A DNA stretch of 37,532 bases from Planctomycetota bacterium (GTDB taxonomy: Bacteria > Planctomycetota > Planctomycetia > Pirellulales > Pirellulaceae): positions 1 to 37,532 of the forward strand of contig JAGWWZ010000028.1 in assembly GCA_018970165.1 (NCBI GenBank), in the 5' to 3' direction. This document shows positions 9,909-30,873 of this stretch, piece after piece. Position 1 is the first letter of the stretch. Each line of letters opens with the position of its first letter. A model generated the notes under the pieces. That model was not told the origin of the DNA and did no database searches. It was given only the letters and a program-made list of their open reading frames with translations. The position numbers and the translations under genes are program-made.

Positions 9909-11924
9909 TCATTGCGGCACGGGTGGTTCACTGTTTGATTCTTCCGGCAATGTCCAATAAAGCAACTCTTCATCCACCGGCCAGGGTCGCAACTGGCGCT
10001 CTTGCGGGGAAAGAGACGAAATGAGGAGTTTTTGCACATCGATCAGTAACGGCAAGCAATCTCCATAATAGGAATGCCCGAGTAGATCCGTGTCGATGTC
10101 CGATGCGTCGACGGTGTCGACATCCTTGAGGACGAGCGCTCCCATGGAAGAATCCCCGGCACGCGTGCTGTCATTGAAATTTCGAGAAAGCAGTAAAGCC
10201 AAGTCGTTTTTGGAGCAATAGAGTGTTGTGCGATTCGCAGTCTTGGTCAATTTGGGGGCCAGTTGCATGCGAAACACATCGCGATCGATATCGGGCGCTG
10301 CGAGAACAATTTGATCGAAGATCTTGCCGCGTTCTCCGATTTCAGCGATCGCGCGACATGTTGCGTCGGCACCCATGCTGTGGGCGATCACATGGATGCG
10401 ATCGGCGTTAACCCGTTCGGCGACGTCGATCAGAAAATCCTTGATGGCAAGATGACTAACTTCGATTTCCGCGCGATCGTAAAAATAACCGAGAACACTC
10501 GCGCGAGACGGCCAACTAAAGAAAATAGGTGCACCTTCGAATCCTAGGTCGTAGTGGATCTGAGCGGTTCGACGAGCGGCGTTTTCGAAATCTACATTGA
10601 ATCCATGAATGAACACGAAACAGGATTTGTCAGATTTGGGCAAGCTCGAAATACGCGATCGCACTGCCTCAAAAAAAGCACTCTCATCCAAGATGTCGGT
10701 TCGCTGAATCACCACGTGTTCCTGTTCGTTTTCTGGTCCTAGCGTCGGTCGCTCGACGGTTCCGATCTCATGTCGAGGGGGAATCGTAACGTTGCATGTG
10801 CCGTAATGAGTAATGTTGTTTGCGTCTCGTTTAGGACCAAAAGTTGGACCGTTGTCCACTCGCCAGTATTGCTGCAGTCCGCCCACCATGGCGAATAGGG
10901 TCCAACCGATCCCCGCAAGCATGAGGGGTGTCATCAACCACTTGAAGCAACCCGACTTGCCGCTTTTGCTGTCCGGAGAATTTGCAAGAGTTGCAAAGAT
11001 CGCAAAAAGAAGGAGCGAAGCCACGAACGGATAGAGGGCGATCGACTGGATCGAGATGATCGGACGCTCACTCAATTCGCGGTTGGTTCCGTAAAAGACC
11101 GTAACCAGTTTTGGTTCCGGAGCCTCCATCAGCTTGCGGACTTCATGTTTGGTTTTCTCAGCCTTACCACTCTTACCGATGACTGGTGCAACCCCCTCAC
11201 TCATTTCCGGGGCCGCTTCCATCCGTGCCTCAGCAACTGCGTACCTCGTCGAAGTGGCTTGGGAATAAACAATATCCGCAAGCAGTTCCACCACCAAAGG
11301 AAGTCGGGTGTGTCCGGCTTTCCATGCTTCGATCAAGCCGGGCAAAGCTAATATTCCGTCTTGCTCAAGCCGATGCGCCGTGAGCAATGCGACGTAATCG
11401 TTTGGGTCAGCCAGCAACTCTATCTTGGCTCTTAAGGATTCCATCTCGGCTTGGTCGATGGGACTCGCCAGTTGTTCAAGACCTGCAATAGCGGCGTTTC
11501 GAGCTTTTGGATCCTGGCTTTCGAGAAACTCAACCAACAGATCATGAATCACCCACTCCAGTTCATGTTCGTTGCGCAACTCAGTCGCCGCTTGCTGCTG
11601 AACTTCCGGAAACTCCGATTGAAGTGCATCGACGAGTAATTGCCGTTTCTCATCGAACGGAGCGTCTTGGACTCGTCCGAGATGATCTGCGATAACGCGA
11701 CCTCGCCGCTTAGGATCCGCAAGTCCGTCGCGAATGTCCTGCAAGGAAACAGCATCTCGTTTTGCAAGGGGATCGTCAGCAAAAAATCGACGAGCCCAAT
11801 CGGGATCCTCAGGGGGAGCGGGTTCCTGGCCATCGCAAAAAGTCATGCATGCCAGGACTACGCTCGCAACCATGAAAAAGAGACGGGGGTATTTAGCGAT
11901 CGGAGGCGAGTAAAGAAATGTCAT
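9909..11924 (-). CDS. Exported DUF900-type alpha/beta hydrolase with HEAT-like region and membrane hairpin
   Basis: This 671-residue protein is the last gene of a four-gene operon. It starts with a signal-like helix (LFFMVASVVLACMTFC). A helical, HEAT-like region follows (about residues 55-230). Then comes the DUF900 alpha/beta-hydrolase domain: FYGTNR (277-282), FVFIHGFNVDFENAARR (about 436-452), FFSWPS and IAHSMGADAT. A likely triad is Ser516, Asp574 and His617. Two hydrophobic helices (about 289-314 and 328-350) are inserted between FYGTNR and the next family motif (YGTCNVTIPPRHEIG). The catalytic part is therefore tethered to the membrane by an internal hairpin. The family's substrate is unknown; esterase or lipase activity is inferred from the fold. 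The start lies 6 nt after the caspase-like gene. Confidence 0.85.
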   Translation of the reverse strand: MTFLYSPPIAKYPRLFFMVASVVLACMTFCDGQEPAPPEDPDWARRFFADDPLAKRDAVSLQDIRDGLADPKRRGRVIADHLGRVQDAPFDEKRQLLVDALQSEFPEVQQQAATELRNEHELEWVIHDLLVEFLESQDPKARNAAIAGLEQLASPIDQAEMESLRAKIELLADPNDYVALLTAHRLEQDGILALPGLIEAWKAGHTRLPLVVELLADIVYSQATSTRYAVAEARMEAAPEMSEGVAPVIGKSGKAEKTKHEVRKLMEAPEPKLVTVFYGTNRELSERPIISIQSIALYPFVASLLLFAIFATLANSPDSKSGKSGCFKWLMTPLMLAGIGWTLFAMVGGLQQYWRVDNGPTFGPKRDANNITHYGTCNVTIPPRHEIGTVERPTLGPENEQEHVVIQRTDILDESAFFEAVRSRISSLPKSDKSCFVFIHGFNVDFENAARRTAQIHYDLGFEGAPIFFSWPSRASVLGYFYDRAEIEVSHLAIKDFLIDVAERVNADRIHVIAHSMGADATCRAIAEIGERGKIFDQIVLAAPDIDRDVFRMQLAPKLTKTANRTTLYCSKNDLALLLSRNFNDSTRAGDSSMGALVLKDVDTVDASDIDTDLLGHSYYGDCLPLLIDVQKLLISSLSPQERQLRPWPVDEELLYWTLPEESNSEPPVPQ

Positions 11925-11930
11925 ACAAGC

Positions 11931-13049
11931 TCAGTATTTCATCCTGATAAGAGCATCGAAAGATCCCTTTTTTGCATCGCGAACGGTGATACGCATGATC
12001 TGAGGGGAAGCCTTGATCTCGCGCACGACCGACTCCGTGTCGGGGGTCGGTTTGCCGTTGACTGCGACTACCACTTGCTGAGGTTGAAGGGAAGCAAAAC
12101 GTTCCTCGCGAATAAGAAATACACCGGTAGCAGGCGAATTCGGTGTCACTTCGATGATCACAGAGCCACGTCCGGGGAAATCGCGCACAATGATTCCCGA
12201 TCTTGGGCCCTCGGCAGGTGGCATACCTGGATAGGTGAATGGAAAGATGCTTTGCTCGGTCTGGATCGGCGCCCCTTTGGCGATCGAAGCTCCCTTGGGA
12301 TAGTAATCGTGGAATGACTTGTGAACCATCAGGCCAACGGACCGGACCATCTCGTCCCAGTTGCGAGGTTTGTTCTTTTCCTGAGAGTTCCACTTCACCC
12401 AAGCCAACGTGAAAATGGACCCGAACGAATCTGGTGGTCCTTCCTTGATCGGGGCGAAAAAAGAACTCTGCCCTGGGCTGGAGCTATTGATGTCGACAAC
12501 TCCCTCTGTTTCGAAGAAAAGTTTCTTGAACAAAGGAGTCGGACTCCTGGGCCTTTCAACATGAATGTAGGGTGCGGCGTAGAGATAACCGTCGCTTCGC
12601 GTATTGCAACAGTCGGTGATCAGGGCGACCATCTTCCCGTTTTTACGAACGAGCGCGTCGAGTAGATCTTTGCGATAGAGCTTGCCTTGGGCCAGCGCCA
12701 GGTAATGTCCCTGGTCATCGGCCGAACCATGGCCGGTGAAATAGAAGAGGATGGCGTCACCTGACTTTGCCTCTATTCGCGAGACGGCATCGAGCAGATT
12801 TGCGGGCGAACTGTCCTGATCCTCCTCGATTTCGAGGCGGATCAGATGGACCCGAGATTCAGGCATGTTCTCCGAGATCGAAGTAGAAACATGGGTGAGA
12901 TCCATTGCGACCGAACCAGTATATTTTCCCCATTGAGCGGATGGAGACACATCCCCGACCAAGATCGCATGAAGAGTTTGTGCGTGCGTATCACGGTCAC
13001 ACAAACAAACGAATAGAGCAAACGAAAGTAAGCTGAGAACAAAACGCAT
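11931..13049 (-). CDS. Secreted caspase-like (C14) peptidase with PDZ domain
   Basis: A 372-residue protein with an N-terminal signal peptide (RFVLSLLSFALFVCLC, likely cleaved near THAQ). The caspase-fold domain carries FYFTGHGSADD (catalytic His107) and ALITDCCNTR, where the second cysteine (Cys148 in the D-x-C motif) is the expected nucleophile, so the dyad is complete. The C-terminal region (about 285-372: GSVIIEVTPNSPA, VVVAVNGKPTPDTESVV) is a PDZ domain, usually used to bind C-terminal peptides. The protein probably cleaves a protein substrate outside the cytoplasm after Arg/Lys or another specific residue, but specificity cannot be read here. It lies 1 nt after the patatin-like gene and 6 nt before the DUF900 hydrolase, so it is certainly co-transcribed. 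Confidence 0.88.
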   Translation of the reverse strand: MRFVLSLLSFALFVCLCDRDTHAQTLHAILVGDVSPSAQWGKYTGSVAMDLTHVSTSISENMPESRVHLIRLEIEEDQDSSPANLLDAVSRIEAKSGDAILFYFTGHGSADDQGHYLALAQGKLYRKDLLDALVRKNGKMVALITDCCNTRSDGYLYAAPYIHVERPRSPTPLFKKLFFETEGVVDINSSSPGQSSFFAPIKEGPPDSFGSIFTLAWVKWNSQEKNKPRNWDEMVRSVGLMVHKSFHDYYPKGASIAKGAPIQTEQSIFPFTYPGMPPAEGPRSGIIVRDFPGRGSVIIEVTPNSPATGVFLIREERFASLQPQQVVVAVNGKPTPDTESVVREIKASPQIMRITVRDAKKGSFDALIRMKY

Positions 13050-13050
13050 A

Positions 13051-14529
13051 TTACATCCCCCTCATGGTCTTGAGTGCGCGACGCGAAGAATCATTGCTGG
13101 GATCGACGAACATGTCAGGTGCGGGCTTGCTCGGATAAATCGCACGTTCGGCTGGGTAGAAATACTTGGGTTTGGCCACAAACGCGGGAACGCCGAGATT
13201 CGCTTCAAAGAGTTCCTTGGCTCGCTTGCGACCAAATTCGAACTCCTGTTCACCGGTCAAATCACGTACCTCGATATGGCTCTCGAACTCATAGTCGGGG
13301 TTCACCTCGAGATCCGACCAGTACTCGCTCAGAAATGCGACTTCTTCGCAATCCGCAAGGAGCCAGTTCTTGAGTAAGATGCGTGCGACCAGCGGATTGT
13401 GTCGCCATCCCGTTCCCAGGACGCGTATGCCTGGCAACATGCGTCGGACATCCTGTGCGGGCATGGAAATGATATAGCCACCGGTGTACGAGCGCTGAGC
13501 AATGGTCGAGGAAAAGGGATGCGTTGCACTGGGCAAAAGCTTCCCCGGTTCCCGCTCTACCACGGCCGGAAAATAAGAAGGTTCTGCTACGGAAGCGAGA
13601 ACCGCCGTCGCAACGTCGTTTGCATTGGTCATCAACCGTAAATCGGCGGTGCGTTCTTCTTCGGGAATACGACTAAGAAGTGCATACATCGAGGGATCAA
13701 CGAAGAATGTAACCGCCTTGCCGATGCGGCGCGTCGGGCCCAAGATCAACTTGGGATGATCCTTTGCGAAACGGTCTGGGTGCGACTTGTAGTATTCGTA
13801 GACCTCGGGGCGCCACGATACATCCATATTGCTAGAGTCGAATTCCTTGAGGTGACCAGGGGAAACTTGTCCATTGGGATTGCGATCTTCGAGTACTTCT
13901 TTGTTCGCCGCGACAATCAGACAAGGGAAACGGGGTTTTGCCTGGCTACGACGCACGATCTCTTCCAGGGATGTTGCATCCTGCCACCGTTGAACTCCCA
14001 AAGCAAAGGCGATGTACTCACGAACCTCCCAGTGGGAAATCTCTGTGGATTGCCCTCGAGTCACTTTCGAAATTTTATTGTTGACATCCTCCATGTTGCG
14101 AATCGAGTCGCGATTGCCGTACTTCAGACGTTCCTCGCAATGTTTCACATTCGCATCGGTGAAACCAAAACAACAAAAGAAAGCTGCGGGAATACTGCCA
14201 CTACTATTCCCCGACACGATGACGCGGTTATTGCGCAGAGCGGGAAATCGTTCGTACGCTTCGTGAAGAACTCCAGCATCGTAGGGGAGGCAGGAACCCT
14301 TGCCTTGAAAACAGAGCATCAATTCCATCTCGGAATAGTATTTCTGAAATTCCGATTCCTGATCGGTTGCCTTTTCCTGGGCAGCAAGTGGGGAGATGCT
14401 TGTGAACAGAAACCCTATTGAAGCTACAACTGCGCAATAAACCCAATTAAGCCCGTAAACCCAATTCAGAGAAGAAGCCAAAACACCATTACTACAGCTC
14501 ACCCTAGAGAACCCTGTTCGATGAATCAT
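13051..14529 (-). CDS. Exported patatin-like phospholipase-fold protein
   Basis: A 492-residue protein with a long signal-like N-terminus ending SPLAAQE. The patatin fold is indicated by LMLCFQGKGSCLPYDAGVL (oxyanion-hole glycines, about 76-84), VIVSGNSSGSIPAAF with the GxSxG nucleophile Ser109, and AEPSYFPAVVER followed by YTGGYIISMP. The last matches the usual 'D-G-G/A ... P' element, but with Thr349 where the catalytic Asp is expected. If that alignment is right, the Ser-Asp dyad is incomplete: either another acid serves or the protein is not a normal lipase. The start ATG overlaps the stop of the upstream gene (ATGA) and its stop is 1 nt from the caspase gene. An 18-bp duplication lies within the signal region. 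Confidence 0.75.
   Translation of the reverse strand: MIHRTGFSRVSCSNGVLASSLNWVYGLNWVYCAVVASIGFLFTSISPLAAQEKATDQESEFQKYYSEMELMLCFQGKGSCLPYDAGVLHEAYERFPALRNNRVIVSGNSSGSIPAAFFCCFGFTDANVKHCEERLKYGNRDSIRNMEDVNNKISKVTRGQSTEISHWEVREYIAFALGVQRWQDATSLEEIVRRSQAKPRFPCLIVAANKEVLEDRNPNGQVSPGHLKEFDSSNMDVSWRPEVYEYYKSHPDRFAKDHPKLILGPTRRIGKAVTFFVDPSMYALLSRIPEEERTADLRLMTNANDVATAVLASVAEPSYFPAVVEREPGKLLPSATHPFSSTIAQRSYTGGYIISMPAQDVRRMLPGIRVLGTGWRHNPLVARILLKNWLLADCEEVAFLSEYWSDLEVNPDYEFESHIEVRDLTGEQEFEFGRKRAKELFEANLGVPAFVAKPKYFYPAERAIYPSKPAPDMFVDPSNDSSRRALKTMRGM
14438..14466 (-). repeat. 18-bp direct duplication in the patatin-like signal region
   Basis: TAAACCCAATT occurs at 14438-14448 and again at 14456-14466, an 18-bp offset. 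On the coding strand this duplicates the hexapeptide NWVYGL/NWVYCA in the signal-peptide region of the patatin-like protein. It keeps the frame and lengthens the hydrophobic segment. Confidence 0.8.
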
Positions 14530-16379
14530 CGCGAACCTCCCTTGCTTGGCAGTTCGATGGGCTTAGACCGAGGCTCGGTATGAAACGCTAGGCCTGCTGT
14601 AAGCCAGCCTTCGCGTGCTTGAAGATGCTCGAGCGAGACGTATTGTTGCCACAACGACGGTCGAAATCGAGGAATTGGAGAAACGGACTCCGGCAGGAAA
14701 CGAGCAAGCAGTCCGATCCAGGCTTGCCGCTGGGAGCTGGTCAGGTTTCCAGCAAGTTCGATCTCATCTCGCACGATTTCAATCCCTGTTGATGACACAT
14801 TCAATCGATACCGAACCGTCGCGGTGCAGGGAGCGCCTATCGGAGACCCATCATCCAATTTGCCGTCCGCGAATCGCAATACGAACTCAGCGGTATGGTC
14901 CCCGAAATGAAACGCAGATGCTGTGGTGGAATCCAACGTGACCGAGGAGGGGATATGAGCGACGGTCGGAAGCTCCCATGGCTCATCGGTCAATTTGAGT
15001 TGAACTTGCCATACTCCGCGAATGGTTGCCTCGTCCAGGGTCTTCCCTCGCAAGCTTTCCAGAATATTCCTGATAGCCGACTCATGCACCATAGCGATCC
15101 AATCGAGTTTGCGCTCCAAATCGGGCTGCAAACTCGGCGGCCGTGTAAGCGATCCCAATTGCTCGGGAAGGGCGTAGAGCGATCGACTCTGCAGATAGAT
15201 TGGATCTGAGGAAAGCCATACGTGTGGCGCGAAGTCTAGCGACTCTAAACGGGACCAAACATTGTTATTGAGTATCGCGTTTACCTTGTTAGCTAGTTTG
15301 AATCCCTCCTCGGAAGCTTTCTCGCTTGATTGCTTTTCGATTTGCGACGAGAGATTGGCGTCCTGCTCAGCTAGCTTGTCCTTTGCGATTCGAGACAGCA
15401 ACCTTCGCAAAATATGTGACTTGTTCAGCAGACCTTCAAGACGAACGGACTGAAGTTGCGATGCCAAACGCACGTCGACTTGAGGTTCGCCTCGTTCCAC
15501 GCTTCTTTCCGTCAATTGCAACGGTTGGGTGGCTGAGCCGGTGGCATGGATATTCGCTTCGATGCTCGCCGAGGAACGCGTGACCTTCGCGTTGATATCG
15601 CCGTACCCAGTGACATCAACCAGGAGTGGAATCCAATGCGGGTTTTCTGGAAATCGAGTACTTACTTCGAACAGGAGGGAGCCATCTGCGGTCACGCGTG
15701 TTCGATCGCTGCAAGTTTCCGAATGCACTGGAATGTGGAACGGAATCCGGCTTTCTCGCTCCGCAACGTTTTTCTTGAGACGGAATAGAACATTCGGATG
15801 GGAAACAGTTCTCTGGATAGCGGTCAGTATCTGCGGAGACAGATTTGCGTGGTGGAGATGCTCAAAGGATCTTCGAATCTCTTCTTGATCTGGCAATGCT
15901 CCGGCGCTGATATGATTTCGCTGCGTTAGTACCGTGAAACGGTCGAGTGTTTCGCGAACTTCCGCGACCGACGATTCTGTTCCCGCCGACATGCGGCGGA
16001 ATGCCTCGACCTGTTTCCTCAGTTCATCGACAAGAGTCTGGTCCGAACCGGGAACGATCCTGTGAAGTCGCTTTTCGTAAGCGGTCAAGAGTCTCGCATC
16101 GGGGCTAGGTGCATCCAGATGCTCAATCAACTCGGGAAGTTTTAGATCCAGTGCAAGGACATAACCGATCGCTGTCCGAGACAAGCGATCGAGGGTTGAC
16201 TGGCACATTGCACGAGTCTGAACTCTTTGCTGCTCGAGTTGCTCGGTTTTCGTCGATTGTAGCTGGGCCCGAGCCTGCTGCAGCAGAGAGTCCAAGCTAG
16301 CCTGGAAACCGAACGATGCCTCATGATTAACACACCACGAGATCGCGATGAAAAAAACTAGCCGAAATGGATGGTGCAT
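14526..16379 (-). CDS. Exported protein of unknown function, first gene of hydrolase operon
   Basis: I do not recognise this protein. From the ATG at 16379 it has 617 residues. A signal peptide opens it (HHPFRLVFFIAISWCV, cleavage probably after SFGFQA). A helical, glutamine- and glutamate-rich region follows (about 28-190), then beta-rich stretches (TADGSLLFEVSTRFP, DVTGYGDINAKVTRSSASIE), a charged coiled segment (AKDKLAEQDANLSSQIEKQS), and another beta-rich C-terminal half (FHFGDHTAEFVLRFADGK). No catalytic motif or cysteine pattern is visible. A longer frame reaches 16508, but the extra 43 residues lack family character, precede the signal peptide, and cross a TATACT box, so I reject them. 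The stop overlaps the next ATG by 4 bp. Its place suggests a binding or structural role for the three hydrolases; that is inference only. Confidence 0.7.
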   Translation of the reverse strand: MHHPFRLVFFIAISWCVNHEASFGFQASLDSLLQQARAQLQSTKTEQLEQQRVQTRAMCQSTLDRLSRTAIGYVLALDLKLPELIEHLDAPSPDARLLTAYEKRLHRIVPGSDQTLVDELRKQVEAFRRMSAGTESSVAEVRETLDRFTVLTQRNHISAGALPDQEEIRRSFEHLHHANLSPQILTAIQRTVSHPNVLFRLKKNVAERESRIPFHIPVHSETCSDRTRVTADGSLLFEVSTRFPENPHWIPLLVDVTGYGDINAKVTRSSASIEANIHATGSATQPLQLTERSVERGEPQVDVRLASQLQSVRLEGLLNKSHILRRLLSRIAKDKLAEQDANLSSQIEKQSSEKASEEGFKLANKVNAILNNNVWSRLESLDFAPHVWLSSDPIYLQSRSLYALPEQLGSLTRPPSLQPDLERKLDWIAMVHESAIRNILESLRGKTLDEATIRGVWQVQLKLTDEPWELPTVAHIPSSVTLDSTTASAFHFGDHTAEFVLRFADGKLDDGSPIGAPCTATVRYRLNVSSTGIEIVRDEIELAGNLTSSQRQAWIGLLARFLPESVSPIPRFRPSLWQQYVSLEHLQAREGWLTAGLAFHTEPRSKPIELPSKGGSR

Positions 16380-16590
16380 AGCCGATGATCCAGAAGCTGA
16401 AACACGAAGCGCAATTTCCAATGAGCAACGACCAATCCAAAACGAAAGTATACCCGATAATTGATTTTCTAGGGTGCTGTACTTCGCCTCCTGCTTGCGG
16501 CAAATCACTACTCCTTCGATTTCTTTTTCGATACCCGGCGATTATTTGAGGAAAGCCGCACAGGTCGCACTGCACAACGGAACCGGTAGA
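16380..16590 (-). other. Leader/promoter region of the four-gene operon
   Basis: This 211-bp gap separates the RCK_C protein gene from the operon. On the minus strand it contains the TATACT box described separately. Nothing else is recognised, and no RNA gene or repeat is seen. Confidence 0.5.
16447..16452 (-). promoter_or_regulatory. Putative -10 box TATACT ahead of the four-gene operon
   Basis: On the minus strand the context TCGGGTATACTTTCG lies about 68 bases ahead of the chosen ATG at 16379. The same 15 bases occur ahead of the dehydrogenase gene at 20806-20820. No good -35 box is visible. Its position downstream of 16508 supports the shorter gene start. Confidence 0.4.
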
Positions 16591-17417: not shown

Positions 17418-19844
17418 CTATGGTTTTCCATCCGGGACAGAGACGGTCAGTTTACCCCAGTAGATTCCCTTGGGATCCCCTCGCTGAGTCAGTGACTCCT
17501 CCATCGCGAGAATCGTCCGTGGTATCAGACTGCTGACCAACTCGCGATCCCCGAATCGGACCGTGATGGGTTGGTTCATATCGACCAGATCGTCCCTGAG
17601 CAGGATGTTAACTGAGGGTTGGTCCGATTGCTCGATCTCGATGGTTTGACCATCGACTTTTGCGGTTACCAGTGCACGGTCCCGTACTTCCTTGGGGTCG
17701 ATGCTCAGCCAGTAGAACCGAGGCTCGACCACATCATCCTGTTTCCAGACGATCTTTTTAGGGAAACGATTGCGTGAGTACTGATGCATCCACGCGATCG
17801 CTTCTGCGTCCTGGCGATCCATCCAGTGACCTTTTCCTTCGTGTAACTTCACGAAGTGCGTATAGCCTTGCGGATCCGCTTGCTGCAAATCGGCAAGTTT
17901 GTTTTTCCAGTCCTCTGCGGTCTTGTTTCGGTTGTAGGCTCCATCGTTGGCGCCCATGTGAATGGTGAACGGCAAGTTGCGTAGTCCCAACGGTGAGGTT
18001 TCATTGGGATGGCCTGCCATCATCGATGCGGCTGCAAATCGATCTGCCATACGAGGAGCGACTTGATAAACGCCATCGCCACCCGCGGAGTAACCCATCA
18101 AGAAAACGCGGTCGGGATTTACCTCCTCGAACAAAACGAAATCTTCAATCAAGCGGTCGAAAAATGCGTCGATATGAGTTTGATGCCACAGGTCCCAAGT
18201 ATCGGTCGGAGCACGCGGCGCGACATACACTCCCTCCTCGAGTTGATAAAGTCGCTTTTGGTTTTCCCACTGGGAATCGTTCACTCGCTTGGGTGCTCCG
18301 CCACCACCATGCATCGAGATGTACAGGCTACGGCCCCCTGCCGGCTTATCTCCGAACACTTTGTAGGCAAAGGGCATCTTCAGTTCGCCGATCGCCAGTT
18401 GCCTCGCCTCGAATTCCTCCTTGCGCGCTTCGCGTTGCCGTTTCTGATAATCCTCAACGAGCAGTTTCTCAGCAGCGGTCGCTTGGTCCTTGCTCAGAGG
18501 CGTTGTCGCGAATGGTTGCTCTGAGAGTGGCTTGCGCGTTGCGAGGTCTTGAACTAAGTATTCTTTCAAGCCTGCGATCGCAGCGCTTGTATCCACGGTA
18601 CTGGGCATCTCTTCCGGAGTATCTGCTTTGGAATCGACAGAGGCTTCCCAGGAGATCAATCGTGGCTCTTTGCCAACTTGAAATGCATCCGACCAACGCT
18701 GCTGACCTACCTCGACCTCCACCGAGTAGCTTTCTCCCTCTTTGAGATACTGAAGCAAGTGATCGTTGGCATCGAATCTCTCGTCCTTGGTGATTCCCTC
18801 CAGCAGAACCGCTCCGGTCGCATCCTTGACGACGACCTTTGCTTGAGTTCGCGATCGCGATTTCGGATCAACGACTCGAAAGGAGATCATTTGTGTTCCC
18901 TCGGGGGGCTTGAATCCCAACTGCGTGTATCTGTCGGTGACATTGACGGCTCGGATGTAGTCGATCGACCGATCCCAGACGAGCGGAAAACGAAGCGGGG
19001 TCTTTTGAAAGCTGACTGCATAAATAGCATGTTTGGGATCATCGCGTTTAGCGGTAGATGCGCGGCCGATGAACCACGCCTGATTCAACTGGTCGCCGCT
19101 CGGTTCCGCTGCTCCGGTAAAATGCCAGCCGTTGTCCCAAACCTCAATCCAGGAGTGATTGCCGCTGTTATCCGACCAGAGCGGGGTACCGACAAAGCGG
19201 GCGGGAATACCCTGAGCGCGGCATGCATCGATCAACAGGACCGACAATCCAGTACAGGACGCCAAACCGGATTGGATCGATTCATACGGGCTTTGGTCTG
19301 CCTTGGCACGCTTGGTGGAATACTTGACATTCACCAAGGCGAACAGTTTCTGATTGAGCATTGCGGCGGCTTGATATGGAGTGGTTGCTCCATCTACTAG
19401 GGGCGCGAATCGCTCGCGGAAGTCTTTACGCCAAGGATCTCTCCGTTCATTGATGCTCGCGTACGGCAGGATGTTGTTCAGAAATATATCCTTAGGGATA
19501 TTCTTTCCCCAAGGGACTTCATCAAGAGTCTTATGGGCAAGCTGAATTTCGGCGAGAAGAAAATCGGCCTTGAGCGATCGCAAATCTCGCAATGGCATAT
19601 TGGCCACCAAGAACTCAGCGGACTCCTGCTCTTCGGACGTGACCGACTTTAAAAGCTTTTCGAGCTCCGGTCGGTTGTCTCCAGCTTGCTCCAACGCATT
19701 CTTTACGTCCGTGCTCCAAATGCGATTCCCTTCATCGGCAATCGTCAGGGGTGCGGCCAGTATGGCGAGGTAGAAGACAGTGCAGATTCCAACAATACGA
19801 AGGAGGGATCCGCCGTTGAGAAAAACGTCGTTGCGTGTTGGCAT
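17418..19844 (-). CDS. Exported transglutaminase-like / alpha-beta hydrolase fusion protein
   Basis: An 808-residue protein with a signal peptide (LLRIVGICTVFYLAILAA). Residues about 150-260 form a transglutaminase-like domain: GLASCTGLSVLLIDACRAQG with Cys197, GNHSWIEVWDNGWHFTGA with His230. A beta-sandwich segment follows (about 310-390), then a coiled linker. The C-terminal alpha/beta hydrolase of the esterase/dienelactone type starts with SLYISMHGGGGAP (oxyanion hole, about 507-519). FLMGYSAGGDGVY carries Ser586, MGANDGAYN carries Asp634, and GKGHWMD carries His663, giving a complete triad. It probably acts on peptides or esters outside the cytoplasm, perhaps on cell-surface polymer or extracellular protein; the substrate is unknown. 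It is 89 bp upstream of the RCK_C gene and is probably a separate unit. Confidence 0.85.
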   Translation of the reverse strand: MPTRNDVFLNGGSLLRIVGICTVFYLAILAAPLTIADEGNRIWSTDVKNALEQAGDNRPELEKLLKSVTSEEQESAEFLVANMPLRDLRSLKADFLLAEIQLAHKTLDEVPWGKNIPKDIFLNNILPYASINERRDPWRKDFRERFAPLVDGATTPYQAAAMLNQKLFALVNVKYSTKRAKADQSPYESIQSGLASCTGLSVLLIDACRAQGIPARFVGTPLWSDNSGNHSWIEVWDNGWHFTGAAEPSGDQLNQAWFIGRASTAKRDDPKHAIYAVSFQKTPLRFPLVWDRSIDYIRAVNVTDRYTQLGFKPPEGTQMISFRVVDPKSRSRTQAKVVVKDATGAVLLEGITKDERFDANDHLLQYLKEGESYSVEVEVGQQRWSDAFQVGKEPRLISWEASVDSKADTPEEMPSTVDTSAAIAGLKEYLVQDLATRKPLSEQPFATTPLSKDQATAAEKLLVEDYQKRQREARKEEFEARQLAIGELKMPFAYKVFGDKPAGGRSLYISMHGGGGAPKRVNDSQWENQKRLYQLEEGVYVAPRAPTDTWDLWHQTHIDAFFDRLIEDFVLFEEVNPDRVFLMGYSAGGDGVYQVAPRMADRFAAASMMAGHPNETSPLGLRNLPFTIHMGANDGAYNRNKTAEDWKNKLADLQQADPQGYTHFVKLHEGKGHWMDRQDAEAIAWMHQYSRNRFPKKIVWKQDDVVEPRFYWLSIDPKEVRDRALVTAKVDGQTIEIEQSDQPSVNILLRDDLVDMNQPITVRFGDRELVSSLIPRTILAMEESLTQRGDPKGIYWGKLTVSVPDGKP

Positions 19845-24932: not shown

Positions 24933-26897
24933 CTACTTCGACATCGCTGCTGTACCTGAATCGTTCGCGATTTCCTGGTACAGCGGCAAGTATCGGTAGT
25001 AGACTTCCAAGCACATGCAGGCCGTAGCCGTTGAATAAATCCGGCCTCCATAGGAACCCCAGACACAGGTAGGGTTCCATGATCCTGCATCCGGACCCTG
25101 GACAACTTGCGAACCGCACAACTGACGCTTCATCGCGTCGTTCCATCGCTCCCAAGCTGCATCGGTTGCTGCCCCGGCTCTCGTCCCATACGCCAAGTTG
25201 GTTTGGCTGCGCAATTGAAACATGGTTAGCGCCGCATAGTACCAATAGTACAAGTTTTCTTGGCTGCGCCCCGGCAAGTTGGCCAGAATCATTTCCTGGG
25301 CCTCTCTTGCGGCGCTCGCTGAGATCGGCAAATCCAGCATGCATCGCATCGCCATTGCCTCGGCGGTCATCGCGGGAGTGGCGGCAGAGATGGGGGCGGG
25401 TGCTCCCTGGGTGATATTGCGATACACGGCCAGACCGCCGTGCCGCCCGGTGCTCACCGAATCCAGAAAGCGTTGTAGCCCCAACCGATTAGGCCCAGGA
25501 ATTGCGATGGCCCGACTCTTGGATGCACTGTTGAGTAGCATGGCTTGCCATCCGAATTGGCTTGTATCCCCTGGGTCATCGCTCGCGAAATCGTAACGCC
25601 ATCCTCCTGTTCTAGAATTCATGGCCTGCAGGGAATATGCTGCGGCCGCTTGCAATGCGGGGAGTAGCGATGCATCGCCCGTCATTGCGTAGGCTTCGGC
25701 GATCGCAAGCCCCGCCATGCCGTGACTGTACATGCGCGCATAACGAACCGTCGGCTCCTGTCCTATTTGATTGCGGCCCGAGAGATCTCCCGATGGGAAT
25801 TGCTGGGACCTCAGATACTGTAAACCTTTTTTTACGGTCTCGGCATAATATCCTTCGCGATGGGTATGCCCCGCGCCGAGGAACGCCAACAGAGCCAGTC
25901 CCGTCATTGCGGTGTCCGCTCGTTGGCCCGCATTGGACCGATATCGCCCTTCGGTTTCCGATGCAGCCCCTCGATCTATACTCCCTGCGCCGAACTGCTG
26001 AGCATTCCATGATCCATCGGGTGACTGCGAGCGTGCCAACCAAGCCAACGCGTTTTGAACAGCGGTTTCCGTATTGGCATCTCCACCGAGGCTGGCCGCA
26101 TACTGAGATCGCTCAGGAGACATCCGCATTCGATACATCACCGGTACATTGGCAAGTGACGCTGCGCTACGCGCGGCTGGTGGAGGTGGCGTAGCCGCAG
26201 GAGTCGCCGGCACCACGGATGCCGGAGGAAGTGTTGGATCGATCGGCAAGTCTGCAAGGCTCAACAGTTCGCTCTCAGCGAGCATCTCCGTAAGATCCAT
26301 CAGGCCTTCGATCGACGACGTTTCATCTGGGCTTGGTTCGGCTAGATGAACCGACTCCTTGGGTAACTTCGGTGCATCTACTTGTTCAGAAACGAGCCGC
26401 GACGATGCTAGTTCCCAGGGTTGTGCGGCGGGAGTGATCGCATCGACAGTTCGATCGTTTGCGGAGTGTTGATTCCTGTCCAGTGACGGGGTGGATGATT
26501 CGTCCGCTGAGGTCGCATCGGCCACTGACGTCGCATCGGCCGAGGAGGTAGTAGTGGCCGGGGAGGTAGCCATTCCTTCCCAAGCAAACGTTGCTGGCGG
26601 ATCGCTAGACTGCTGGACTCCACCGTCCGAACCGGGCCCAAAGCCAGGTGAGACGATGCGAGTCCCATAGGCATACATCAGGAGCCATATATGAGCCAAC
26701 ACGGCGATGCCGACACATTTGGCGAGCGGTTTGGTTTGCCCCCAACGGGTCCAAGATGCGATCAGCAGACTTAGGGCGATGATCGCGAAGACAACCCCCA
26801 AGATGATCGCCCACGCACGGCTAGCGGGTGGGGCTCCGATCGTCGCGATCCACCAACCGGTGGTAATCTGGTCAACGATGTGCCCGGTGTGGTTCAT
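24933..26897 (-). CDS. Membrane protein with prenyltransferase/squalene-cyclase-like alpha-alpha barrel
   Basis: A 654-residue protein. Two N-terminal helices (AWAIILGVVFAIIALSLLIA and CVGIAVLAHIWLLMYAYG) are followed by a long low-complexity region rich in Ser, Ala, Thr and Pro (about 90-250). The C-terminal part (about 275-640) contains repeated helical motifs: NALAWLARSQSPDGSW, GLQYLRSQQFPSGDLSGRN, MNSRTGGWRYD, YYWYYAALTMFQLR and MCLEVYYRYLPLY. This is the alpha-alpha toroid seen in prenyltransferases, squalene cyclases and complement-like proteins. No catalytic DxDD or zinc motif is visible, so a cyclase reaction is unlikely. It is the last gene of the TPR-ExbB-ExbD operon, 5 bp after exbD, and could be an energised periplasmic partner of the ExbB-ExbD motor. 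Confidence 0.8.
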   Translation of the reverse strand: MNHTGHIVDQITTGWWIATIGAPPASRAWAIILGVVFAIIALSLLIASWTRWGQTKPLAKCVGIAVLAHIWLLMYAYGTRIVSPGFGPGSDGGVQQSSDPPATFAWEGMATSPATTTSSADATSVADATSADESSTPSLDRNQHSANDRTVDAITPAAQPWELASSRLVSEQVDAPKLPKESVHLAEPSPDETSSIEGLMDLTEMLAESELLSLADLPIDPTLPPASVVPATPAATPPPPAARSAASLANVPVMYRMRMSPERSQYAASLGGDANTETAVQNALAWLARSQSPDGSWNAQQFGAGSIDRGAASETEGRYRSNAGQRADTAMTGLALLAFLGAGHTHREGYYAETVKKGLQYLRSQQFPSGDLSGRNQIGQEPTVRYARMYSHGMAGLAIAEAYAMTGDASLLPALQAAAAYSLQAMNSRTGGWRYDFASDDPGDTSQFGWQAMLLNSASKSRAIAIPGPNRLGLQRFLDSVSTGRHGGLAVYRNITQGAPAPISAATPAMTAEAMAMRCMLDLPISASAAREAQEMILANLPGRSQENLYYWYYAALTMFQLRSQTNLAYGTRAGAATDAAWERWNDAMKRQLCGSQVVQGPDAGSWNPTCVWGSYGGRIYSTATACMCLEVYYRYLPLYQEIANDSGTAAMSK

Positions 26898-26902
26898 GAT
26901 CG

Positions 26903-27334
26903 CTACCGAATCGGCGCGTTGGGCATGCGCGAAGCAGTCATTGTCCAGCCGACATTTTTGACCCCTGCCCGGCTGATAGCCTCCATGACCTGCGATGCCT
27001 GCATGACGGAGCCGCTTGCATCGGCGCGCAGTTGGACTCGCACATCGGGATAGTTTTGTACCGCGGGCAGGAGCACGCTGGTCAGTTGATTCGCGTTCAT
27101 CCTCTGGCCATCGAGTTCGATGCTTCCGTCGGAGTACATCGTTACAACCTTGGGAGACGGTTGAGCCGCCATCGAGGTCGGCGAGGATGCCTTGGGAAGA
27201 GTCAACTGGATCTGTCGTTCACTCTCGGAGAATCGTGTGCCAACCATGAAGAAGATGATCAGCAGAAACAGCACGTCAATCATGCTCGTGAGATTGATAG
27301 CTGGCAGTTCCTCGGAGCTCGTTTTGAGAGGCAT
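26903..27334 (-). CDS. exbD: ExbD/TolR family biopolymer transport protein
   Basis: A 143-residue protein with a short cytoplasmic start, one membrane helix (SMIDVLFLLIIFFMVGTRF, whose Asp is the conserved proton-carrying residue) and a periplasmic domain ending IRAGVKNVGWTMTASR-like sequence. Motifs ELPAINLTSMIDVLFLLIIF and VRVQLRADASGSVMQASQVM fit ExbD. With ExbB it forms a proton-driven motor that transmits energy to an outer-membrane or periplasmic partner (in E. coli, TonB). There is no TonB in this operon. It lies 21 bp after exbB and 5 bp before the alpha-alpha-barrel gene. Confidence 0.92.
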   Translation of the reverse strand: MPLKTSSEELPAINLTSMIDVLFLLIIFFMVGTRFSESERQIQLTLPKASSPTSMAAQPSPKVVTMYSDGSIELDGQRMNANQLTSVLLPAVQNYPDVRVQLRADASGSVMQASQVMEAISRAGVKNVGWTMTASRMPNAPIR

Positions 27335-27355
27335 CGTTGACTATCCTCCCTAGAA

Positions 27356-28393
27356 TCAAGCAGCCTTGCGCGATCGGCTGCGAGAACGGCCCGAGTCGCT
27401 TTCCTGAAGACCTTCGGCACTGACCACATCGACCAATCGCTGAGCGTGATGATCCATTTCGATGATCAATCGATCGATGTGCCCAACGAAGTAGACGTAC
27501 ATCGCATACGCGGGGATCGCGACGAGCAGTCCTGCGGCCGTGGTCAACAGCGCCTGGCTGATTCCACCTGCAAGCATCTCCGGTCGCCCCATCGCCTGGG
27601 AAGTCGAGATGTCGTTGAAGGATTGGATCATTCCCATCACCGTACCGAGCAAACCGAGGAGCGGCGCGATGTTGCTGATCGCGCTGAGAAGACGCATATA
27701 TTTTTTGAGATGGTTGCTCTCTCGCTCACCCGCATCGAGAACCGCCTGCTCCACTTCGACGGCGGATTTGCCATAGCGTTTGAGGGCCGCCATCATGATT
27801 CGCGACATGGGATTAGAATTCTTCTCGCACAATTCGATCCCTTCTTCACGATCGATTTGTTGCTGTTGCAATTGCTCGATCAATCGATTCACGAAAGGTC
27901 GTGGGATCACCCGTCCCCTGCGCAGGTTGATCAATCGCTCAAACGAGAACACCATCAACGCAAACGAGCACAAGGCGATCGGGTACATCATCAACCCGCC
28001 ATCGTGGAAGATCTGCAGCAGGTTGCGAACCGGGATCTTGCCTTCGGCATTTGCATTATCCAATGATCCGTCGGGCCGTGCGCTCGATACGGCAACCCCC
28101 GTAGCTGGATTAGGATTGTTCGCGTTGGGTAATGAAGCGACCCGTGGATCTACCCTGCCACCCACGGCATTTATGTTGTTCGCGTTGCCGTAACTGACAT
28201 TCCCAGCGTTTGGGTTGAGTGCCCCGTTGTTCGAAGGGAATCCGCTGGTGACTGGAGAACCATTCGGAAACTGCGGACTCGGACGCCACGAGTTCCCTTG
28301 TCCCATCGCCGTCGGCGCATACATCAGCGCCAGCACGGCAAGCCAGCCGTACCATACGCATCGAACTGCGGACAGGCACACGTGGGATTTCAT
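27356..28393 (-). CDS. exbB: ExbB/TolQ/MotA family proton channel protein
   Basis: A 345-residue protein with an extra signal-peptide-like start (CVWYGWLAVLALMYAPTAM). An Asn/Gly/Pro-rich periplasmic segment follows (about 33-120, SYGNANNINAVGG). The ExbB core has a first membrane helix (MMYPIALCSFALMVFSFERL), a cytoplasmic loop, and two further helices (AISNIAPLLGLLGTVMGMIQ and QALLTTAAGLLVAIPAYAMY). The core motifs PLLGLLGTVMGMI and GISQALLTTAAGLLVAIP are diagnostic. The start ATG overlaps the TPR gene's stop (ATGA), so translation is coupled. The N-terminal extension is longer than in classical ExbB, as is common in planctomycetes. It ends with a basic RSRSRSRKAA tail. Confidence 0.92.
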   Translation of the reverse strand: MKSHVCLSAVRCVWYGWLAVLALMYAPTAMGQGNSWRPSPQFPNGSPVTSGFPSNNGALNPNAGNVSYGNANNINAVGGRVDPRVASLPNANNPNPATGVAVSSARPDGSLDNANAEGKIPVRNLLQIFHDGGLMMYPIALCSFALMVFSFERLINLRRGRVIPRPFVNRLIEQLQQQQIDREEGIELCEKNSNPMSRIMMAALKRYGKSAVEVEQAVLDAGERESNHLKKYMRLLSAISNIAPLLGLLGTVMGMIQSFNDISTSQAMGRPEMLAGGISQALLTTAAGLLVAIPAYAMYVYFVGHIDRLIIEMDHHAQRLVDVVSAEGLQESDSGRSRSRSRKAA

Positions 28394-30414
28394 CGTTTAT
28401 TGCCAACGGGGGATTCGTTGGATGTTCGGTTGCTCTGGAGTGTCGGTGCAACAGTCGGTTCCAGGGAATTCAGTTTTTGCTGCGCCATGGCACTGAAGAC
28501 TCCATCAGCATCCCTGTCCAAAAGACTTTGGTATGCGTTTCGAGCCGCCGAGCCATCGCGCAACAATTCATAGCACTGGCCAATCTGCATGCGTGCCGCA
28601 GATTGCCAGTACAGACTGCTCCCCGTTCCCAAGACACCCTCGTATGCTTGCAAAGCTTCCGCATAACGCCGCTGCATCAGAAACGTTTCTCCCATCATCC
28701 AACTGGCTCTTGCAGCCAGATCGGGCGACGGATGAGTTGGTTCCCGAGCGATACGGTTGAGAAGTTGTCGAGCATCATCGAAACGCGCCTTGGAAATAAA
28801 ACAACGCGCCCTGATATAATCGACATCATCCCGACAATCGCATTCGGGAAACTGGGACTGAATTCGGGAAACGATCGTTTCCACGGCTACCCAGTTTTGC
28901 CTCAATGCTTGCATTTCTGCTTGATGAAGCCAGACGCGAGCCATCCACTTGGGAGGATGGGCATCGGAATCTGGAAATCGCTTTATAAGGACTTCCCAAT
29001 GTTTATTGGCGTCGTCCCATTGCTGTCGCTGCAAGAGAGCTTCCCCCAATTCGAATCGGATCGCGGTCTCCAACTCGATATTGTCTACGGGTGTGTTTAA
29101 GTCAGACGTATTTTCGTCGATTTGGAGGTTTTGTAGCGCGATCACCAAGTCATCGTGGGCTGCTTCGGGAAGTCCGAGTTCCAGCAGCACCTGCCCGCGG
29201 GCTAACCGAGCGTGGGGGATCCAAGTGCGGGAGCATCCCAAATCGATGGCTTGGTCCAGCCGTTCTTTCGCTACTTGCCAATCGCGACGTTGAATAGCAC
29301 CCCTAGCCAACCGGATCCGAGCTTCGATTGCGAGGGGGTGTTTGGACTCACGTTCGATGACATGATGGAGCAGTGCGTCGGCATGTTCATCATCGCGGGC
29401 TTCGATCAATGCGAGCGCCAGCTCGTATGCGGTAGTCAAATCCGTTTGCCCTGCCAACGTCCATTCGATTGCGGGCTGGAGTGCCTGCGCAAAGGCCGAG
29501 GCATCGTGATTCGCCCGAGCCGCTTCGCTTCGCAGCAACGCCGACCGAGTGCGCCATGTGGGATTCGGAGCCACTTTTTCCAGTTGCTCGATCCCCTCGA
29601 TCACCTGTTGCGGTTCCGACAAGCGGATATGCGACTTGACAAGTGCAGTCCGTGCCCGGCAGTGCAACTCGGAACCTTCGCGACTTGATTGAATCGCATT
29701 TTGGAAGTACTTCAAGGACTTCTGCCAGTCGTTGCGGCATTCTTGGGCGACCAATCCGAGTTCGTACCAGGCATTCGCTGCAGCCTCTCCTTGGGTTGGC
29801 CATGCCCATTCAGCAGATCGCTCGCTACCTGGGATTTGAAGCAACCCTTGGAGTCTCCGTTCGGCGAGTTCCGTTTGCCGTTGCTGGCGTTCGTGCTGCG
29901 CGGCCAGAAGGTGCGTATTAGCGATCCACGATTCCCATGTTTCGGGTGCTGTTCGTTTCGCCAGTGCGATGCGATCCTGCAACGACTTGGCATCGCGCAG
30001 CCATTGCAACATGGACTCGTAAGTCTTGGGATCCTGAAGCTTCCCGTCTGCGAGCATTGCAAAGTAATTCGATTCGAGAGCCAACGGGGAGCCTGGGCAT
30101 GCCTTACTCACTTCCCGAAATAAAGCCGATGCTTGGTCCCACTGCTGATTGCTGAATGCATTGCGAGCTTGGGTAAACGAGCGGACGATCAACCCTTTGG
30201 TATCATCGAGGGAGTTAGCACTCGGAGCTTCATCTTCAGCGACCCGATCGCCTGCGATTTGGCCTCCCGTATTTTGGCCTCCCGTATTTTGGCCTCCCGT
30301 ATTTTGGCCAGCAGCGATTTGGCCGTAGGCCATTGCGAGCACAAGCCCACCTAAGGCCAGCGAAAACGATTTCGTTTTGCTAGCAACTATCGATCGCTTC
30401 AACATAGGCATCAT
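28390..30414 (-). CDS. Exported TPR-repeat protein, first gene of the ExbBD operon
   Basis: About 674 residues from the ATG at 30414 (or 671 from 30405). A signal peptide (FSLALGGLVLAMAYGQIA) is followed by a tandem QNTGG repeat and an acidic linker. The rest is made of many TPR-like helical repeats (NQQWDQASALFREVSKACPG, LAERRLQGLL, VAKERLDQAIDLGCSRTWIP, RRYAEALQAYEGVLGTGSSL, YELLRDGSAARNAYQSLLDR). TPR proteins bind partners; this one probably acts in the periplasm with the ExbB-ExbD motor. The longer frame to 30558 runs through palindromic repeat A and is rejected as artefact. Its stop overlaps the exbB ATG by 4 bp. It diverges from the TPR lipoprotein gene at 30874. Confidence 0.8.
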   Translation of the reverse strand: MMPMLKRSIVASKTKSFSLALGGLVLAMAYGQIAAGQNTGGQNTGGQNTGGQIAGDRVAEDEAPSANSLDDTKGLIVRSFTQARNAFSNQQWDQASALFREVSKACPGSPLALESNYFAMLADGKLQDPKTYESMLQWLRDAKSLQDRIALAKRTAPETWESWIANTHLLAAQHERQQRQTELAERRLQGLLQIPGSERSAEWAWPTQGEAAANAWYELGLVAQECRNDWQKSLKYFQNAIQSSREGSELHCRARTALVKSHIRLSEPQQVIEGIEQLEKVAPNPTWRTRSALLRSEAARANHDASAFAQALQPAIEWTLAGQTDLTTAYELALALIEARDDEHADALLHHVIERESKHPLAIEARIRLARGAIQRRDWQVAKERLDQAIDLGCSRTWIPHARLARGQVLLELGLPEAAHDDLVIALQNLQIDENTSDLNTPVDNIELETAIRFELGEALLQRQQWDDANKHWEVLIKRFPDSDAHPPKWMARVWLHQAEMQALRQNWVAVETIVSRIQSQFPECDCRDDVDYIRARCFISKARFDDARQLLNRIAREPTHPSPDLAARASWMMGETFLMQRRYAEALQAYEGVLGTGSSLYWQSAARMQIGQCYELLRDGSAARNAYQSLLDRDADGVFSAMAQQKLNSLEPTVAPTLQSNRTSNESPVGNKR
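30259..30309 (-). repeat. 15-bp tandem repeat, three copies plus partial
   Basis: TTGGCCTCCCGTATT occurs at 30259-30273, 30274-30288 and 30289-30303, followed by a partial TTGGCC (30304-30309). On the coding strand it encodes QNTGG repeats just after the signal peptide of the TPR protein. Repeat length is a multiple of three, so copy-number change keeps the frame. Confidence 0.9.
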
Positions 30415-30873
30415 TCGAAGTTGGCCTCTATTCGGAGCGTAAGCTTGAAAGCTACGATTTTGGCGGTTGGGATTGCCAGCAGTCATGGTTTCGCCGGGGA
30501 TTATCATAACCCGACGCGTGAGCGAGGGACGTACGAGGGAAAACGTCGCGAGCGCCATGTGTCTATCCCTCGCTTACGCTTCGGGTTGAGATCACCTCGA
30601 AAATCGCAACTCTAACACCCTCGCGTCGGGTGATGATCAAGACCGAAACGTAGGAGTTAGAGAAACCGCCACATAGAATCAAGGCAAACTGGGTGGAATT
30701 GGATCGATTGGCAAGGCAGGCATGGTGAAGGGGCTTGAGTTAAGGAGTTCTGCTTTGCTACAAGAAAGAGCGGGAAGCAGTTCATTGTGAAGGAAGCAGG
30801 TAATGCGTTATTCATGATTGCTCACTACAAGGGCATCGATCGATTTGAGGAATCCTTTTCTCGCTGTTTGCAT
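30415..30873. other. Divergent intergenic region with palindromic repeat A
   Basis: This 459-bp gap between the TPR/ExbBD operon (minus strand) and the TPR lipoprotein gene (plus strand) holds palindromic repeat A (30508-30587) plus a decayed half-copy to about 30632 (ending CCCTCGCGTCGGG). It should contain both divergent promoters. No confident promoter pair, RNA gene or coding sequence is seen. Confidence 0.6.
30508..30587. repeat. Palindromic intergenic repeat, copy A (80 bp)
   Basis: The ends are 22-bp inverted repeats: AACCCGACGCGTGAGCGAGG... at 30508-30529 and its near-perfect complement at 30566-30587 (ending TACGCTTCGGGTT), with two mismatches. The interior contains GAGGGAAAACGTCGCGA, shared with copy B. 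Flanking GGGATT(A/T)TCA just upstream is also shared with B. It is REP- or MITE-like and has no coding capacity. Confidence 0.85.

Follow-up and report, generated by a model that had tools for sequence, protein, structure and literature searches.

A candidate two-part exported lipid-handling module of Pirellulales pairing a predicted BPI/CETP-like carrier with a patatin-fold protein

Introduction

BPI, CETP and LBP are lipid carriers of the TULIP superfamily built on two tubular barrels. The bacterial TULIP proteins known at the time are listed in Levine (2019; PMC6791001) and in a 2017 review (PMC5507252), and one of them, DUF4403, is a full-length BPI-like pseudodimer (Levine, 2019). Neither text makes any mention of Planctomycetes, and Levine (2019) mentions neither a lipase nor an operon. 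Here we describe a cluster of four minus-strand genes (P1 to P4, in operon order) on contig JAGWWZ010000028.1 (assembly GCA_018970165.1) from a planctomycete of the order Pirellulales, which encodes a predicted TULIP protein (P1), a patatin-fold protein (P2), a caspase-PDZ protein (P3) and a DUF900 hydrolase (P4). The window, i.e., the whole stretch of 37,532 nucleotides analysed, is the entire contig of this genome (5.2 Mb in 330 contigs; G000 among the genomes compared, which are designated by G numbers).

P1 shares with BPI, CETP and LBP a predicted two-barrel arrangement (residues 193–602) and a signal-like start. It differs from them in being bacterial, in having an extra helical N-terminal domain, in its pairing, by operon or by fusion, with a patatin-fold protein and in lacking detectable sequence similarity. 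Among the bacterial TULIPs (P47/OrfX, YceB, DUF4403, DUF2140 and DUF2993), P47, OrfX3 and YceB match its fold only at Z values where chance matches are common. P2 has the fold and the GNSSG elbow of patatin-like phospholipases such as CapV and CapE, two effectors of the cyclic oligonucleotide-based antiphage signalling system (CBASS). Unlike them, it lacks the catalytic aspartate and has a signal-like start, and no cyclic-nucleotide synthase was found among the 16 window proteins scanned. P3 shares the His/Cys dyad and the motif order of bacterial caspase homologues (peptidase C14, orthocaspases), to which it adds a signal-like start, a C-terminal PDZ domain and a partner DUF900 gene. A 2012 survey of such homologues (Asplund-Samuelsson; PMC3501461) suggests surface or fratricidal roles for those that are extracellular and makes no mention of PDZ. 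P4 has the domain and the Ser/Asp/His motifs of DUF900 alpha/beta hydrolases, but carries them behind HEAT-like repeats and two hydrophobic segments and next to a caspase gene.

The folds are thus known ones, in a combination for which we found no earlier description. The first-pass annotation of this DNA knew of no described system of this composition, and neither did the open-licence literature yield one, in a search outside which most subscription papers fall. The most economical and likeliest reading is that of a lipid carrier and a lipid-processing partner, with a protease and a membrane-anchored hydrolase as companions. In its specific form, in which we place as much belief as doubt, the cluster is a two-part exported lipid-handling module of Pirellulales composed of a P1–P2 unit and a separable P3–P4 companion.

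Results

Conservation and co-occurrence of the cluster

P1 and P2 overlap by 4 nt, and gaps of 1 and 6 nt separate P2 from P3 and P3 from P4, exactly as first annotated (Table 1). The mechanical open reading frame (ORF) of P1 opens further upstream, at a GTG at position 16508. Among 60 relatives, P2 was found in eight, always beside a strong P1 match (contig ends split the clusters of G005 and G050), and all of these except G040 also carry strong matches to P3 and P4. Across 396 genomes of the order, 18 have P2 and 11 have a close P3 (E < 1e-100). Nine of the latter hold P2, where 0.5 would be expected (P = 4e-12). In the phylum sample, P2 was detected in the window's own genome and in G048 (2 of 392). 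A pattern-based scan of contigs with the P2 profile, from whose list G040 and G050 are missing, returned ten loci, all from metagenome-assembled genomes, nine with the titles Pirellula, Pirellulales, Planctomycetaceae or Planctomycetota and one titled just 'bacterium'.

P2 or a close P3 is present in 22 genomes, on stretches of which we used tblastn to read the arrangement of the genes. All four genes lie together in 11 of them (G000, G018, G005, G026, G022, G048, G050, G611, G464, G496 and G473; G005 and G050 are scored here although contig ends split the cluster). The P3–P4 pair is inverted in G022 and G026, which together with G018 and G005 share a genus-level group with G000. Seven genomes have P1–P2 without an adjacent P3–P4 (G040, G453, G516, G548, G633, G666, on a short contig, and G704), and two have P3–P4 alone (G332 and G793). 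G455, whose contig ends in P2, and G660, which has only a P2 fragment, were left unassigned. P1 adjoins P2 in 19 of 19 cases (the G660 fragment excluded), P3 adjoins P4 in 13 of 13, and a 4-nt ATG overlap between P1 and P2 is possible at 10 of 17 loci, the window included. Furthermore, in G548 the two are a single ORF of 1116 residues, in which a proline-rich linker replaces the hydrophobic start of P2. The cluster therefore consists of two modules, P1–P2 and P3–P4, that often but not always occur together.

These counts agree with the earlier view of the cluster as a conserved unit rather than a chance adjacency, and the same arrangement recurs in several families of the order. The concern that homologues might occur mostly singly applied to DUF900, matched in 25 of the 60 relatives with seven of these matches in the cluster. 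The check for variable islands that the first-pass annotation proposed did not point to a mobile island: the P2 tree requires six family changes against a possible minimum of five and largely tracks families, the exception being that G022 and G026 (family f1) group with family f8 on an open fork. Nor was a P2 relative confirmed in viral contigs, where a pattern-based scan gave 110 pattern matches, or found in plasmids. Of 30 relatives, 13 have a match to the TrkA-C-like gene upstream of P1 and 27 to the downstream SSF transporter gene (Pfam). No clean empty site emerged from the TrkA-side regions, the SSF gene or the G018 and G005 loci: the five TrkA-side regions read hold none of P1 to P4, and the non-cluster ORFs at the G018 and G005 loci match no window ORF compared, a set that excludes the TrkA-C gene.

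P1, a predicted TULIP protein from a widespread family

The AlphaFold model of P1 (mean predicted local distance difference test score, pLDDT, 79) comprises a helical N-terminal domain and two mixed domains. Its top Foldseek matches are BPI, CETP and LBP (E 1e-11 to 9e-11, probability 1.00), and VIA-align returned CETP (Z 12.5 over 357 residues, root-mean-square deviation 6.9), BPI (Z 12.3 and 12.0), LBP (Z 10.6) and P47 (Z 8.0). OrfX3 (Z 7.3), YceB (Z 6.4) and BPIFA1 are among the weaker TULIP matches, which are intermixed with unrelated chains at Z values that VIA-align calls common. We gave no weight to the matches, at Z 7.8 or less, that the helical domain made with unrelated chains, designed helical bundles among them. 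The predicted model thus has two tubular barrels in one chain, which points to P1 as a two-domain lipid carrier of the BPI/CETP/LBP type.

The first-pass annotation had called P1 an orphan, a description that its predicted fold and its many relatives overturn. The P1 profile matches proteins in 383 of the 396 genomes of the order. The best match listed outside the P2-bearing genomes scored 173.5 bits, and the operon P1s scored 238–918 bits (the P1 of G050 is in two pieces, of 278 and 184 bits). An unrooted tree, in which G050 has no P1, parts the 18 operon P1s from 10 paralogues by one branch with support of 100/100. On the strength of these matches and this branch, the operon P1s form a branch of their own within a family that is widespread in the order. 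In the phylum sample, the profile matched 4 of 109 genomes, the window's own and three of the same class.

The window's own genome also has a P1 paralogue (G000:C327, L172:7357-9306). The one paralogue scanned against Pfam (L180:6923-8806) has no match. A gene of a single family coding for 158–189 residues adjoins the P1 paralogue in seven of the ten loci read.

P2, a patatin-fold protein with a non-canonical active site

The patatin fold of P2 is clear from its predicted structure, even though the Pfam Patatin match (2e-4; 21.9 bits) falls below the cut-off of 27.7 and the model has a pLDDT of 65, with much of residues 335–422 below 50. VIA-align paired the model with CapV (Z 17.5), CapE (Z 16.0), patatin-17 (Z 14.4) and PlpD (Z 13.7). 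No sequence-level link to the patatin chains of the PDB was found; zearalenone-type hydrolases account for the four weak PDB matches (E 0.24–0.4), which lie around GNSSG. All 18 orthologues have the GxSxG serine, and 17 have the first glycine.

The catalytic aspartate of the DG[GA] motif is replaced in all 18 orthologues by T, Y, N, V, I, C or S, and the equivalent motif, placed by alignment and by its position after EPSYF in a part where the model is unreliable, reads Y-x-GG. The Pfam match stops at profile position 169–173 of 191 in six of eight P2s and earlier in the other two. Because the patatin aspartate is absent throughout, a lipase activity of P2 is uncertain: either another residue takes the place of the aspartate or P2 has a binding role instead.

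P3 and P4, a caspase-PDZ and DUF900 pair

The P3–P4 homology search covered the genomes of the order. The caspase (C14) match of P3 (17.8 bits, cut-off 21.4) and its PDZ match (18.9 bits, cut-off 27; weak PDZ matches in the PDB) both lie below the Pfam thresholds. Its His107 and Cys148 are kept in 13 of 13 orthologues, and distant relatives in G732 and G721 exceed the C14 cut-off with 29.9 and 32.1 bits. DUF900 (PF05990) is firm in P4 (1e-48; 166 bits, cut-off 20.5), where Ser516 and the motifs of the Asp and His of the putative triad, assigned from motif only, are conserved in 13 of 13. All the residues named in the first-pass annotation, including Ser109 of P2, are indeed present. Its three hydrolase folds hold outright for DUF900; the patatin, caspase and PDZ assignments, below their Pfam cut-offs, draw on motifs, orthologues and, for P2, the fold.

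In a profile search, the HEAT-like region of P4 matched HEAT-type alphaRep chains, the best at 3e-24, and the two hydrophobic segments lie between it and the hydrolase domain, so that P4 appears membrane-anchored. Positively charged loops lie on the cytoplasmic side of membranes (the positive-inside rule). In 11 of 13 orthologues, the loop that joins the two segments carries a net positive charge; provided that the N-terminal segment acts as a signal peptide, both soluble domains would therefore be periplasmic.

The products of all four genes look exported. The 12-residue hydrophobicity maxima of P1 to P4 in the window are 2.16, 2.27, 2.68 and 2.75, and those of the orthologues are at least 1.72, with one exception (0.89), the P2 that follows P1 in the fused ORF of G548. 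AQ stands at the likely cleavage site of P3 in 12 of 13 orthologues. The signal-like starts noted earlier are supported by hydrophobic N-termini in the orthologues of all four proteins and by their absence at the inner junction of the fusion, but the scan on its own does not discriminate, since several other window ORFs reach similar maxima.

Neighbouring caspases and serpins

All four loci read in genus g23 have a second caspase gene upstream of P1. It codes for 723–739 residues with a C14 domain above the cut-off (3e-15 to 8e-18) and, by eye, a signal-like start. The gene is directly upstream in G048 and G464 and beyond a large gene in G473, where the intervening product is a CHAT-TPR protein, and in G496, where it is a 52% homologue of the latter. 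A C14 gene also lies beside P3–P4 of G793.

We also identified distant caspase-PDZ relatives of P3 beside a serpin in five of six loci of family f17 (G740, G732, G721, G783 and G526), chosen from the strongest P3 matches and not at random. The sixth, G631, has no serpin among the eight neighbours scanned. Position P1 of the serpin reactive loop (serpin numbering) is a lysine in four serpins if one counts from the hinge and, by the aligned PKS motif, also in the fifth. Orthocaspases cut after positively charged residues (PMC6426788). The serpin neighbours with their lysine, together with this preference, suggest that exported caspases of the kind related to P3 are active and held in check, and f17 may possess a bacterial caspase–serpin pair.

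Discussion

Gene order, co-occurrence, the P1–P2 fusion, the predicted folds and the conserved key residues come directly from the computations and are the ground on which the two-part module is proposed. From these we infer a compartment, a hand-over of lipid, an activity of P2 and possibly the cleavage of partners by P3. The BPI/CETP-like P1 would take up lipid, either in the periplasm or extracellularly, and pass it to P2, the two acting as one unit. P2, a patatin-fold serine protein, may bind the lipid or hydrolyse it via a non-canonical active site. The inner membrane would anchor P4, whose HEAT-like and DUF900 domains would lie in the periplasm. P3 would be a caspase-type protease, with a PDZ domain that may sense a substrate or tether the protein to a partner. 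The four proteins would jointly process lipids that are incoming or derived from the envelope, and the protease would serve as a switch or a quality-control step.

Several observations weigh against this proposal. The seven genomes with P1–P2 alone imply that the two parts need not cooperate. The TULIP assignment comes from one AlphaFold model, the other four P1 models having a pLDDT of 60–66; no TULIP Pfam model matches the eight operon P1s scanned (E up to 1), and a PDB profile search with P1 gave no TULIP sequence match. The missing aspartate means that P2 may be a dead, lipid-binding protein. Finally, export was judged from the hydrophobicity scan and motifs only.

A bolder form of the two-part module, which we consider doubtful, is a new envelope machine in which a BPI/CETP-like carrier is physically coupled to an acyl-processing patatin-fold protein and gated by an exported caspase, one with serpin-linked relatives, and a HEAT-DUF900 hydrolase of the inner membrane. 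With the same reserve, this machine can be viewed as a periplasmic caspase–lipid pathway, a bacterial counterpart of animal protease cascades and lipid-presenting plasma proteins. If the reading as a lipid-handling module is right, a further family of BPI/CETP-like carriers, near-universal in one order and unmatched by Pfam in the members scanned, would have one branch bound up with a lipase-fold partner, to which it is fused in one genome, and both would be linked to an exported caspase. The cargo of bacterial TULIPs, the targets and restraint of exported caspases and the movement of envelope lipids in planctomycetes would become testable.

The best-surviving alternative, though an unlikely one, is the proteolytic/lipolytic cascade of the first-pass annotation, in which stress or attack activates P3, which then cleaves P4, P2 or P1, and the hydrolase activity set free damages the envelope of the cell or of a neighbour. 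The invariant His/Cys pair of P3, the extra caspases of g23, the serpins of f17 and the surface or fratricidal roles proposed for extracellular homologues all fit a proteolytic system. P3 as an obligatory activator of P2 is another matter, given that P1–P2 and P3–P4 each occur alone. Comparison of P1 and P2 with (10) and without (7) P3–P4 revealed two and four differing columns, none with Arg, Lys or Asp, and no insert, i.e., no cleavage-type feature linked to P3. P2 also lacks the canonical aspartate. Such a cascade is thus possible but not obligatory.

Nutrient scavenging is less probable still. The genes would then form a catabolic operon with no signalling, which extracts and degrades the lipids of prey or particles, P3 digesting the proteins. 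The signal-like starts of all four products would suit such a role, as would the esterase-like DUF676 gene inserted in the G026 locus and a ceramidase-like gene elsewhere in the window. However, P4 appears membrane-anchored and has HEAT-like repeats, and a caspase-type protease with a PDZ domain is, in our judgement, an unusual digestive enzyme. The inserted gene of G026 (L055:11360-12373; DUF676/DUF7379, just below the cut-off) lies between P2 and P4.

We regard a defence against phages or competitors as very improbable, despite the likeness of P2 to the CBASS phospholipases CapV and CapE, its nearest folds, and of P3 to defence caspases. The distribution of P2 is patchy (18 of 396), and the PADLOC caspase model matches P3 weakly (2e-4). 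CBASS effectors are cytosolic, but the products of this cluster look exported. No CD-NTase or other second-messenger synthase was found among the 16 window proteins scanned with PADLOC (E up to 0.1 or 1e-5), and the absence of confirmed P2 relatives in viral contigs or plasmids and the family-tracking tree also argue against defence. Some neighbours at other loci match PADLOC models: among ten flanking proteins (two each from G018, G048, G464, G611 and G022), we recovered the caspase model in G048 and G464, a kinase-like model in G048, PDC-S27 in G022 and an ABC-type ATPase (Pfam ABC_tran) in G611. These are too few to call a defence island. In the window, there is a PDC-M16B match (4e-6) in a TPR protein.

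The idea that four unrelated genes for exported housekeeping proteins adjoin by chance, to which only the commonness of DUF900 by itself lends credit, is contradicted by the shared arrangement across several families, the overlap, the fusion and the co-occurrence counts and can hardly be maintained.

Features of the locus

Table 1. Coordinates of the cluster genes, their domains and the related loci (positions are those of the window unless a locus is named)
Feature	Position	Strand	Description
P1	14526-16379	-	617 residues from ATG at 16379; signal-like N-terminus, helical N-domain, predicted two-domain TULIP
P1 helical N-domain	about residues 20-192	-	predicted model
P1 TULIP region	14574-15803 (residues 193-602; TULIP about 193-602)	-	aligned range in VIA-align
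P2	13051-14529	-	492 residues; signal-like N-terminus, patatin fold, GNSSG, YTGGY in DGG-equivalent place
P2 Ser109 codon (GNSSG)	14203-14205	-	Ser in 18/18 orthologues
P3	11931-13049	-	372 residues; signal-like N-terminus (THAQ), caspase-type domain (His107/Cys148), C-terminal PDZ
P3 PDZ	residues 321-357	-	Pfam stretch
P4	9909-11924	-	671 residues; signal-like N-terminus, HEAT-like repeats, two hydrophobic segments, DUF900
P4 parts	HEAT-like about 60-190; hydrophobic segments about 295-352; DUF900 428-621, Ser516	-	
g23 second caspases	L057:4933-7152, L119:13264-15459, L121:10602-12773, L120:16390-18591		
Serpin-linked caspase-PDZ loci	L132, L133, L134, L135, L137		

The promoter and terminator scan gave counts under the shuffled expectation (1 versus 4.3 and 5 versus 7.3), and a tRNA-Lys is the sole match of the Rfam scan. 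Two genes upstream of P1, and sharing its strand, a gene at 17418-19844 codes for a protein with a transglutaminase-core domain (3e-16) and a weak dienelactone-hydrolase match. Further away, a cluster at 24933-30558 encodes a MotA/TolQ/ExbB protein, a TPR protein and a product whose squalene-cyclase-like and DUF6288 matches fall below threshold. The ORF at 34773-37532, open at the window edge, has ceramidase-like, concanavalin-like and DUF7133 domains.

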